A stretch of DNA of 64,000 bases from the NCBI GenBank assembly GCA_017452505.1, contig JAFTMI010000026.1, positions 29,551-93,550 of the forward strand, in the 5' to 3' direction. Source of the DNA: Oscillospiraceae bacterium (lineage in GTDB: Bacteria > Bacillota > Clostridia > Oscillospirales > Oscillospiraceae). Positions 9,555 through 57,560 of this stretch are shown here, piece by piece; the stretch's first letter is position 1, and every line of letters starts with the position of its first letter. The notes under the pieces are model-generated. The model saw only the letters and a list, made by a program, of their open reading frames with translations, was not told the DNA's origin and made no database searches. Made by a program: the position numbers and the translations under genes.

Positions 9555-10293
9555 TATTCTGACCCTGTTCCCGGACACTCTGCTGGATGTGCTGTCTGAC
9601 AGCATTTTGGGCCGTGCCCAGGAGCGAGGAATTATTACCATTGATGCGCACCAGATCCGGGAGTACACTGCCAATAAGCAGATGCAGGTGGATGACTATC
9701 CCTATGGCGGCGGTCGCGGCGCGGTGATGCAGGCGGATCCGTTGTATCGTTGCTGGGAAGCCGTCTGCGACAAAGCAGGTGGCCCGGTGCATACCATTTA
9801 CCTGTCGCCCTGTGGCAAGACATTCAAGCAGGCTGATGCCATCCGTCTGAGCAAAATGGAGAACATCATTTTTGTCTGCGGTCACTACGAGGGTATCGAT
9901 CAGCGCTTTATTGACGAATGTGTTGACGAGGAATTGTCCCTGGGTGATTTTGTGCTGACCGGCGGTGAGATCGCCGCAATGGCTATGACCGATGCCATCT
10001 GCCGTATGGTGCCCGGTGTGCTGGCAGACCCGGAGTGCTTTGAAGATGAGAGCCACTTTAACGGTCTTTTGGAATATCCCCAGTACAGCCGCCCTGCGGT
10101 CTGGCACGGCCGGGAAGTGCCGGAGATATTGCTGTCCGGCAATCACCAAAAAGTGGCGCAGTGGCGCCGTAAGCAGGCTCTGCGCCGCACGAGAGAGCGC
10201 AGACCCGATATGTATGAAAAGCTTGATTTAACCAGCAAGCAGGATAAAAAGCTTCTGCAGGAAATGGAAGCGGAAGATAACGAAAGCAAGTAA
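9544..10293 (+). CDS. trmD: tRNA (guanine37-N1)-methyltransferase TrmD
   Basis: 249 residues. TrmD methylates G37 of tRNAs reading CNN codons, preventing frameshifts, with S-adenosylmethionine bound in a trefoil knot. Hallmarks: MRIDILTLFP start, DDYPYGGGRGAVMQADP, CGHYEGIDQRF, and DFVLTGGEIAAMAMTDAICR forming the knot. C-terminal HHRRRKQALRRT-type tail (WRRKQALRRTRERRPDMYEKL). Normally rplS follows; here the operon ends at a terminator instead. Confidence 0.96.
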   Translation: MRIDILTLFPDTLLDVLSDSILGRAQERGIITIDAHQIREYTANKQMQVDDYPYGGGRGAVMQADPLYRCWEAVCDKAGGPVHTIYLSPCGKTFKQADAIRLSKMENIIFVCGHYEGIDQRFIDECVDEELSLGDFVLTGGEIAAMAMTDAICRMVPGVLADPECFEDESHFNGLLEYPQYSRPAVWHGREVPEILLSGNHQKVAQWRRKQALRRTRERRPDMYEKLDLTSKQDKKLLQEMEAEDNESK

Positions 10294-25442: not shown

Positions 25443-25747
25443 GACCGGCTTATAACAAGGTCGCACTAATCGGGGAGTTAGCGGTGCCCTGTACCTGCAA
25501 TCCGCTATAGCAGGGGTGAATCCCCGCACCCGGGCCTGTCCCGGTACTGTCCGGGCCTTGTAAGCGGTGTTGATGGAGCGGTCTCGCGCAACAGAATCCC
25601 GTGAACCATGTCAGGTGGGGAACCAAGCAGCATTAAGCGGATCTTTCCGTGTGCCGCGGGGTTGCCGTTTCTGAGCTGGCTGCAAGGTTTTCGGGTATTG
25701 AGCAGGTTCAAATGCGGGTGTGCGATCTTGTTATGAGCCGGTCTTTT
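25443..25747 (+). ncRNA. ffs: Large (Bacillus-type) signal recognition particle RNA
   Basis: The conserved S-domain apical sequence is present: CCATGTCAGGTGGGGAACCA followed by AGCAGCATTAAG (25606-25638). The Alu domain is also recognisable: TAGCGGTGCCCTGTACCTGC and AATCCGCTATAGCAGGGG upstream, and GTGCCGCGGGGTTGCC downstream. The ends pair: CCGGCTTATAACAAG (25445-25459) with CTTGTTATGAGCCGG (25727-25741), followed by TCTTTTT. About 300 nt, as in Firmicutes with an Alu domain. It is the RNA partner of Ffh. The exact 5' end is uncertain. Confidence 0.93.
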
Positions 25748-43585: not shown

Positions 43586-43605
43586 TGGCACAAATTGAAT
43601 CGCTT

Positions 43606-43772
43606 GAGATAGAGGCGCGGGATTCATCAGTACCCACCACAAGGCCAGGTAGCCGTGGCAGGGGAAAGGGGATACCGCCGAAGCTCGAATTACGTGCCTG
43701 TGTATTTCCTGCTGGGCCGTCAGAGAATATCTGCCGGACTGTCACATTAACTTTTGTGGAGCGCTATCGATT
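43606..43772 (+). promoter_or_regulatory. Lysine riboswitch (L box)
   Basis: The aptamer core is recognisable: GAGATAGAGGCGC at the 5' side, AGTA loop segment, GGGGAAAGGGGATACCGCCG then AAGC, GCTGGGCCGTC, GGACTGTCA, and closing TGGAGCGCTATC. The P1 strands GATAG (43608-43612) and CTATC (43764-43768) pair. Lysine binding should stabilise P1 and let the downstream terminator form. It controls the ABC importer that follows, so the importer most likely carries lysine. Confidence 0.92.
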
Positions 43773-43821
43773 ACAGTGAGTATTTTCGTACCTTTTCCGG
43801 ATGGGTATTGGTATTTTCTGT

Positions 43822-57223: not shown

Positions 57224-57277
57224 TATTGGTTTGGGAATTGCAAGAAGAATTGCTGAAAAATTTGCAAAAAATATAAA

Positions 57278-57308
57278 GAAAAAAGCTCTCCCTTTTGGGA
57301 TAGCTTTT
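57278..57308 (-). terminator. Second terminator behind the repeated tRNA 3' end
   Basis: Minus-strand AAAAAGCTATCCC-AAAA-GGGAGAGCTTTTTT, starting right after the CCA of the repeated tRNA end. Confidence 0.85.
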
Positions 57309-57328
57309 TGGTGCGAGAGATGGGACTC
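57308..57328 (-). repeat. Repeated 3' end of tRNA-Leu (copy without the tRNA body)
   Basis: Twenty-one bases identical to 57477-57497: the last 20 nucleotides of tRNA-Leu, from the T-loop to CCA, plus one. No acceptor 5' strand or anticodon arm precedes it; it lies 169 bases downstream of the true tRNA end and is itself followed by a terminator. Confidence 0.9.
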
Positions 57329-57431
57329 ATTGCATTTCTATCCTTCGGGTAGAAATCAAGGTAGACACCAGTGTTTGCACTGGTGGCAGCAATATGCCAC
57401 CGGCATATTGCAATTTAGTTCTTAGAGTCCC
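57322..57431 (-). other. Structured cassette between the two tRNA 3' ends
   Basis: GGGACTC (57322-57328) and GAGTCCC (57425-57431) pair to close a domain holding three perfect hairpins: 7 bp (57334-57340 with 57350-57356), 8 bp (57366-57373 with 57378-57385, loop of 4) and 10 bp (57389-57398 with 57402-57411, loop of 3). It follows the tRNA terminator, so would be made only on read-through or from its own promoter. No coding potential with a ribosome site. It could be a small folded RNA or a MITE-like repeat. Confidence 0.6.
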
Positions 57432-57435
57432 ACCT

Positions 57436-57477
57436 AAAAAAAGATTGAAGCAATCCTTATTAGGATTGCTTCAATCT
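57436..57477 (-). terminator. Terminator directly after tRNA-Leu
   Basis: Perfect 16-base stem (57441-57456 with 57463-57478), loop of 6, then seven T on the minus strand. The stem begins at the last base of the tRNA. Confidence 0.92.
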
Positions 57478-57560
57478 TGGTGCGAGAGATGGGACTCGAA
57501 CCCACACGGCGTAACCACACGCACCTCAAACGTGCTTGTCTACCATTCCAACACTCTCGC
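57478..57560 (-). tRNA. tRNA-Leu, anticodon GAG
   Basis: An 83-base class II tRNA. Acceptor GCGAGAG/CTCTCGC with discriminator A and encoded CCA. Anticodon arm CACGT-TTGAGGT-GCGTG gives anticodon GAG (reads CUC/CUU). T-loop TTCGAGT with stem GTGGG/CCCAT. Its own promoter lies just upstream and a terminator just downstream. Confidence 0.95.

Follow-up and report, generated by a model that had tools for sequence, protein, structure and literature searches.

The feature behind tRNA-Leu(GAG) in the window (the whole stretch of Oscillospiraceae DNA that was analysed, 64,000 nucleotides) is best read, tentatively and just short of probable, as a member of a family of short, mobile, integron-like cassettes that, within a single Oscillospiraceae genus, are anchored at tRNA and tmRNA genes and carry a dyad-rich recombination site. 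Copies are dispersed and anchored at tRNA genes, with arms that match the resident RNA and cores that are independent of its kind; close relatives differ in the presence or absence of units with a clean boundary in the T-loop, and units form tandem arrays and enclose genes. The order of parts is a terminator-like hairpin, an arm that we call I, which resembles the T-loop and T-stem of the host RNA in reverse complement, a core of two or three hairpins, and an arm that we call D, which repeats the 3′ end of the host RNA from T-loop to CCA.

The tRNA-Leu(GAG) locus

The direct repeat of the tRNA-Leu 3′ end that had been noticed in the sequence-only reading is exact over 21 bases on the minus strand (Table 1), whereas words shared with the tRNA end reached 9 nt at most when the 199 bases downstream were put through 2000 mononucleotide shuffles. 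That reading had also placed a terminator behind each copy of the repeat: the pattern scan recovers the first of these (T1) and misses the second (T0), which nevertheless forms a hairpin followed by a run of T when folded. T0 is probably the original terminator of the tRNA-Leu gene, judging from the with/without pair at tRNA-Ser(CGA) described below. Similarly, the closed domain of three hairpins holds, with h1 (10 pairs) and h2 (8 pairs) as first described, but the closing stem has 11 pairs instead of 7, and h3 is bulged and longer than the 7 pairs given for it. The folding energy of 57277-57435 is -67 kcal/mol (z -7.2), which none of 200 shuffles equalled, and the cassette stretch has no match in Rfam at gathering cut-offs. 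Elsewhere, the window also holds a lysine riboswitch (43602-43774, plus strand) and a large bacterial SRP RNA (25461-25725, plus strand).

Table 1. Parts of the tRNA-Leu(GAG) locus, in window coordinates
Feature	Position	Strand	Basis
tRNA-Leu(GAG), anchor gene	57478..57560	-	ARAGORN call; CCA gene-encoded
Promoter-like match TTGACA-17-TATAAT, 12/12	57604-57576, upstream of tRNA-Leu(GAG)	-	pattern scan
Direct repeat copy 1: tRNA-Leu 3′ end, T-loop G57 to CCA, plus one base	57477..57497	-	
T1, terminator-like hairpin separating tRNA-Leu from the unit	57436..57477	-	pattern scan: 57478-57441, 17 pairs
I arm, near reverse complement of tRNA T-stem/T-loop; 5′ strand of closing stem	57425..57434	-	fold and sequence
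h1 hairpin, centred on motif CCGGTGG	57389..57411	-	fold, 45-copy alignment
h2 hairpin CCAGTGCAAACACTGG; REP-like letters GTAG precede h2 on the plus strand	57364..57387	-	fold, alignment
h3 hairpin; sequence and length variable	57334..57356	-	fold, alignment
D arm, copy 2 of tRNA 3′ end; first bases are the 3′ strand of the closing stem	57308..57328	-	fold and sequence
T0, second terminator-like hairpin	57279..57309	-	fold
Entire unit as covered by covariance model R1, 119.6 bits	57316..57434	-	

The E. coli tyrT region offers a parallel, in that the terminal bases of its tRNA recur about 170-180 nt behind the gene, as they do at the tRNA-Leu cassette. Unlike the tyrT repeats and their rtT RNA, the cassettes lie at many tRNA kinds and have a conserved core, an inverted arm and cargo.

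A dispersed family at tRNA and tmRNA genes

A BLAST search with the cassette finds ten more places in the window's own genome (E < 1e-9), two of them on near-identical contigs; copies L002-L008 there lie behind tRNA-Arg(ACG), Ser(GGA), Val(CAC), Arg(CCG), Arg(TCT) and tmRNA, with Arg(TCT) being the same locus on two contigs. The covariance model R1, built from an alignment of 45 cassette copies, matches 15 places in this genome at E <= 1e-4, including four on C51 and C68, which are nearly identical. These two contigs hold near-identical tRNA-Gly/Arg/His clusters with units (L133 and L159), perhaps from a mixture of strains in the metagenome-assembled genome (MAG), for which contamination is 6.1%. 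In a first survey of relatives, R1 matched 60 of 119 genomes, all of the own genus (60 of 73), and none of the other 46, of which 38 belong to other genera of the same order and eight have no listed genus. A later and wider survey of the genus matched 113 of 136 genomes, the own genome included, under stricter filters that miss weak copies. A pattern scan of named genome contigs yielded 50 stretches whose titles are those of MAGs of Oscillospiraceae or other Clostridia, many of them from goat, sheep, cattle, deer, buffalo or yak gut. Three contigs of viral collections also carry a unit, located behind a whole tRNA-Lys, behind the 3′ half of a tRNA-Thr and behind the 3′ half of a tRNA-Lys where phage genes end. 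At L131 (~9750-9970), a unit follows a tRNA-Lys 3′ half that starts at the anticodon loop and closes a run of phage genes, the picture of a phage nested at a tRNA that was already occupied.

Applied to 100 sources, R1 gave 127 matches at E <= 1e-4, of which 118 (116 distinct sequences) were analysed; the nine left out are seven repeated loci or sequences, one partial match and one antisense match. A same-strand tRNA or tmRNA gene lies upstream in the examined stretch for 102 of the 118 copies, and 73, at 28 kinds of RNA, lie no more than 90 nt downstream of it, while an opposite-strand tRNA occurs within 90 nt of none of the 118 and a same-strand tRNA starts within 90 nt downstream of the unit in two. 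Because copies were recruited by similarity to the window's core and not by proximity to a tRNA, this anchoring is not built into the sample, which is biased to the window's core type. It was conceivable at the outset that the cassette would turn out to be a mobile repeat at unrelated sites, free of tRNA sequence; with the 73 copies directly behind a tRNA or tmRNA, this is not what we observe. Even distal and orphan copies mostly have, by eye, a recognisable tRNA end as their D arm, the exceptions being L078, the second copies of L146 and L173, and the last copy of L209.

The arms follow the resident gene. For 95 copies, a tRNA lies no more than 800 nt away. Their D arms score 14.9 out of 17 with their own tRNA and 9.35 with other kinds; 46 of them are perfect over 17 nt, and 71 beat every other tRNA kind. 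The I arm, compared over the full 17-nt end, scores 10.6 with its own tRNA and 8.7 with others and beats every other kind in just 20 of the 95, which counts against our preferred reading. Over the T-loop and T-stem, the I arm of 72 proximal units matches 9.81 of 11 positions in its own tRNA and 7.74 in others (0 of 500 permutations as good) and is perfect in 20 of the 72, as opposed to 1.8% in comparisons with other tRNAs. Reverse transcription primed by a tRNA, with the I arm as primer-binding site, was dropped as a candidate, as the I arm fits the T-loop and T-stem better than the whole end. The direct repeat starts at about C56-G57 in the T-loop, and in copies of the L043 type the tRNA end, T1 and the I arm form one long palindrome. 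In a census of the own genome (44 RNA-gene rows, five of them with less than 210 nt of downstream sequence), 12 have the end of the RNA repeated downstream in direct orientation (at least 14 of 17 positions, within 1500 nt); one of these is on a duplicate contig and another, Gly(CCC) at +777, may be due to chance.

We considered whether the unit is a structured RNA, such as an rtT-like small RNA, a sponge or a decoy for tRNA processing, made by read-through of the tRNA terminator. The strong fold, its covariation and the strict orientation behind the tRNA would suit such an RNA: the 45-copy alignment has 34 consensus pairs, 22 of which show changes on both sides. Yet G-U pairs make up only 6 of 1150 paired cells in h1 (0.5%) and 7 of 1060 in h2 (0.7%), with 5.0% in the closing stem and 2.3% in h3, against 11% in the minimum-free-energy folds of 72 tRNAs, a comparison that serves as a guide, the alignment having been fitted to the model and the tRNA folds being predicted. 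Furthermore, both strands fold equally well, the antisense strand being the more stable in 65 of the 118 copies, and the Rfam search noted above likewise speaks against a known RNA family. The combination of rare G-U pairs with many two-sided changes points to dyads in DNA, bound by protein or extruded, more than to an RNA gene. Since h1 and h2 are almost purely Watson-Crick, arrays of units enclose genes, and units differ between close relatives, the reading as small RNA or decoy is weakened, and we hold a structured RNA to be very improbable. The sequence-only reading had offered four identities for the cassette, of which a MITE-like insert and a relic of integration come closest to the dispersed, tRNA-targeted repeat found here, while small RNA and processing decoy have lost ground.

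Differences between relatives and an apparent move between tRNA kinds

The own genome was compared with G060, the nearest relative at the tRNA-Leu locus, over 31 rows of RNA loci whose upstream sequences match (one G060 locus is counted twice, and the h1 detector is crude, R1 matches having been checked on the same stretches). At tRNA-Ser(CGA), a unit is present in G060 and absent from the own genome, a clean 173-bp difference at GTT/CGAATCC with nearly identical flanks. The tRNA-Ser(GGA) locus of the own genome has two units, of which G060 shares the distal one and lacks the one on the tRNA side, and Arg(TCT) is filled in the own genome and not in G060. These are pairs without an outgroup, and each difference is a gain or, equally possible, a precise loss between direct repeats, a point that weighs against our preferred reading. 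Four loci (Ser(GCT), Trp, Val(CAC) and Gln(CTG)) show a unit or related insert in one of the two genomes and, in the other, an integrase gene close by. Finally, at tRNA-Tyr both genomes carry a unit with the same T1, in which h1 differs as a whole stem.

The cores suggest exchange between tRNA kinds. Among 85 units from 33 genomes and 28 kinds, cores at different tRNAs within one genome exceed unrelated pairs in identity by 0.066 (2 of 1000 permutations as good), and cores at the same tRNA kind in different genomes by 0.005 (370 of 1000). Since cores thus group weakly by genome and not by tRNA kind, copies seem to move between tRNA kinds with their arms renewed to follow. The nearest neighbour of a core lies at another kind in another genome for 51 of the 85 units, and neighbours are mixed; such a weak genome signal counts against the preferred reading.

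We hypothesize that new units enter through site-specific recombination at the T-loop and that the stretch from I arm through core to D arm would act like the attC site of an integron, recognised by its dyads or as a folded strand and not by the exact sequence of the arms. The enzyme would act in trans and would probably be a tyrosine recombinase. A crossover in the T-loop replaces the 3′ half of the tRNA, and moving between kinds should therefore damage the tRNA unless the arms are corrected, a difficulty for our preferred reading; we suppose that they are adjusted afterwards, by conversion, correction of the palindrome or selection. The chief rival to a recombinase is spread by copying, in which template switching or gene conversion at the palindromic region of tRNA and terminator copies the tRNA end in both directions and pulls in the core of another copy. 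We regard it as unlikely but deserving of serious weight, for several observations suit it: the long palindromes of the L043 type, arms that track the resident tRNA, the rarity of G-U pairs in h1 and h2, and the whole-stem difference in h1 at the otherwise matching tRNA-Tyr locus. It is also favoured by the unit at tRNA-Ser(CGA) of G060, where T1 nearly duplicates the local T0; such a T1 would not come from a circular donor, and this observation therefore counts against such a donor and against our preferred reading. Elsewhere, as in the window and at L207, T1 differs from T0, and the boundary at the T-loop is clean, both of which argue against copying. Copying also leaves unexplained the gene-bearing arrays, in which genes are enclosed as in arrays built by a recombinase.

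Arrays, enclosed genes and known systems

In G026, G055, G002 and G048, empty units stand in tandem with a period of 157-188 nt, including an array of four 157-bp units at tRNA-Ser(GGA) of G026, and six loci (L204, L205, L207, L208, L209, L210) have arrays that are fixed at an anchor and built of units ending in a palindromic site, as is typical of integrons. Other stretches bear genes. Specifically, 4.7 kb between two units at tRNA-Arg(CCG) of G008 hold a HaeIII endonuclease, two C5 methylases and Shedu SduA, and at tRNA-Tyr of G019, ParE and a Phd-like antitoxin (whose Phd match is below the Pfam cut-off) lie between two units. In G051, tRNA-Leu(TAG) and a unit flank a nuclease-like gene; G026 has a methyltransferase gene behind four units, and G050 has two near-identical DUF4417 genes in a gene-bearing stretch (the family scan was run on one of them). 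Genes of no assignable family also occur in G008. In G033, AbiEi/AbiEii and a resolvase are upstream of a unit whose arms are tRNA-Trp-like, with no tRNA in the examined stretch. In the mechanism that we propose, the enclosed defence genes would be cargo.

The main weak point of the preferred reading is the enzyme, as no recombinase family was tied to the units and the gene-bearing stretches that were read hold no intact common mover. A Xer-like pair is present in eight of nine genomes; the exception, G035, also lacks R1 matches, but so do G006 and G021, which possess the pair. Large serine recombinases lie beside L212 and L255, and L257 holds a resolvase. At L259, L260 and L212 (contig C10 of the own genome, ~5.7-30 kb), about 24 kb separate tRNA-Lys from a displaced unit with tRNA-Lys-like arms; by eye, similar sequences of ~40 nt lie near both ends of this stretch, and a large serine recombinase ends 6 nt before the unit.

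Among the gene-bearing stretches read, a single one encloses an integrase gene: at tRNA-Val(GAC) of G055 (L207, 2260-3001), two whole units are followed by a small gene, a truncated tyrosine-integrase gene (PF00589) and a half unit consisting of h2, h3 and the same tRNA-Val D arm. Its frame is ~31% identical to the ordinary integrases compared, and we take this remnant as a lead, not as proof of the mover. It would also suit the proposal that the units are minimal, non-autonomous tRNA islands, tiny elements moved by the tyrosine integrases of prophages or integrative and conjugative elements (ICEs) through an attP that carries the tRNA 3′ end, as would the displaced tRNA fragment in the same orientation and the integrase genes near Val(CAC), Trp, Ser(GCT) and Gln(CTG) in one of the two compared genomes. 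Such islands predict lineages specific to one tRNA, whereas the cores are not grouped by tRNA kind, and the I arm and folded core would have no explanation; we consider this origin rather improbable.

A RAYT transposase was considered as mover because the plus strand of h2 in the window reads as GTAG plus a hairpin, as in REP elements, and one RAYT gene lies ~1.1 kb from an R1 match, a proximity confined to a single contig sequence seen in two assemblies (L301, L302). RAYT matches (Y1_Tnp) are present in 49 of 91 genomes of the genus; otherwise, the distance to a unit is 11 kb in L261, and L311 has a 20-bit partial match to h1. A scan for perfect hairpins in 260-nt flanks at 17 of the 20 fetched RAYT loci found no hairpin of the unit, on which RAYT as mover was rejected, and the letters at the foot of h2 differ by subtype (CTACC, CAACC, GATCC, TCTCC after h2; GTAG, on the plus strand, in that of the window). 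We therefore think it most improbable that the unit is a REP-type element moved by a RAYT transposase. Six of the 17 scanned loci (L308, L310, L313, L316, L318, L320) have RAYT genes flanked by GTAG-tagged palindromes of different sequence (for example GTAGGGGAGGGTC...GACCCTCCC), a separate repeat system.

Integrons, with IntI, attI and attC, build arrays of cassettes at one anchor, have a palindromic site in each unit, and carry toxin-antitoxin and defence genes as cargo. The cassettes resemble them in forming arrays at one anchor, in the palindromic site that closes each unit and in their toxin-antitoxin and defence genes; they differ in that the anchor is any of 28 kinds of tRNA or tmRNA, that the outer arms take on the sequence of that RNA, and that many units have no gene. 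Furthermore, IntI (TIGR02249) is above the cut-off in none of 91 genomes of the genus, which have sub-threshold matches only, as do 14 control genomes; a canonical integron was rejected on these grounds. In integrons, new cassettes enter beside the anchor; the extra unit of the own genome at tRNA-Ser(GGA), on the tRNA side, would be such an entry if it is a gain. An attC site carries R and L boxes, and its folded bottom strand is the substrate of recombination; in the cassettes, the outer arms pair, no inner L box was seen, a further point against our preferred reading, and neither strand folds better.

Genomic islands at tRNA and tmRNA genes share with the cassettes an intact tRNA, a displaced 3′ fragment in the same orientation and an end point in the T-loop (PMC4383910). 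The islands found with Islander have size peaks at 13.6 and 39.9 kbp (PMC4383910), whereas empty cassette units of ~160-190 bp leave no room for an integrase gene, carry an inverted second copy of the tRNA end, and have a core that is not tied to one tRNA kind. Likewise, REP and BIME sequences with RAYT are dispersed extragenic DNA palindromes, with GTAG as it stands before h2 in the window's subtype (PMC3733652, PMC2817692), and the cassettes differ from them in being tied to tRNA genes, in being a composite of 120 nt and in not lying beside RAYT genes in the 17 loci scanned. In Methanopyrus kandleri, a palindrome lies ~10 bp behind about half of the tRNA genes, and its authors speculate on a signal for 3′ maturation (PMC5217627); this too is a palindrome behind many tRNA genes of one organism, yet a short one, and the excerpted description mentions no repeated tRNA end.

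Under the terms used, no description of such tRNA-anchored cassettes was found in the open-licence literature. The working kind, that of integron cassettes and tRNA islands, is known, and the cassettes fail at least one tested feature of each. tRNA genes are classic entry ports of mobile DNA, but the tRNA piece with which an element restores its target also binds the element to that one tRNA; for a family to change its tRNA freely and still match the host with both arms, a new means of choosing and rewriting the target would be required. We consider it somewhat unlikely, if well worth entertaining, that the cassettes represent a system unlike integrons, islands and REPs, in which the T-loop would serve as universal docking site, a hairpin cruciform as recombination site, and the arms would be rewritten to match any tRNA or tmRNA entered. 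If this were true, one cassette lineage could enter nearly every tRNA gene and build arrays of defence genes there. Integron-like arrays with defence cargo that are polymorphic across a genus of uncultured gut bacteria would also provide, in their with/without pairs, a natural test bed for the mechanism.

Several other tRNA-linked repeats were observed in the same material. First, another type of cassette, which shares the kind of I arm but has a different core (...AAAGGCCGTTAAGAAAACATGCCGGTGGCATGTTTTTAGGCCGTGGGAGAGTCC...), lies behind tRNA-Leu(GAG) at L017, L022, L024, L031, L032 and L035; L021, L049 and L078 are related to it, and some loci have this type in tandem behind the tRNA. Second, folded inserts with other cores are linked to tRNA-Pro, Gln(CTG), Leu(CAA) and Leu(TAA) (L147, L148, L139, L151, L284), part of them with an I arm from the opposite side of the T-loop. 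At L256 (11003-11150), tRNA-Thr and tRNA-Tyr are fused by an apparent deletion, either natural or a fault of assembly. Finally, a multi-hairpin repeat of ~170 nt with the motif ATATCCGTTCC lies right behind the tRNA terminators at L142, L152, L149 and L133 (tRNA-Cys, Gly(CCC), Ser(TGA) and His).
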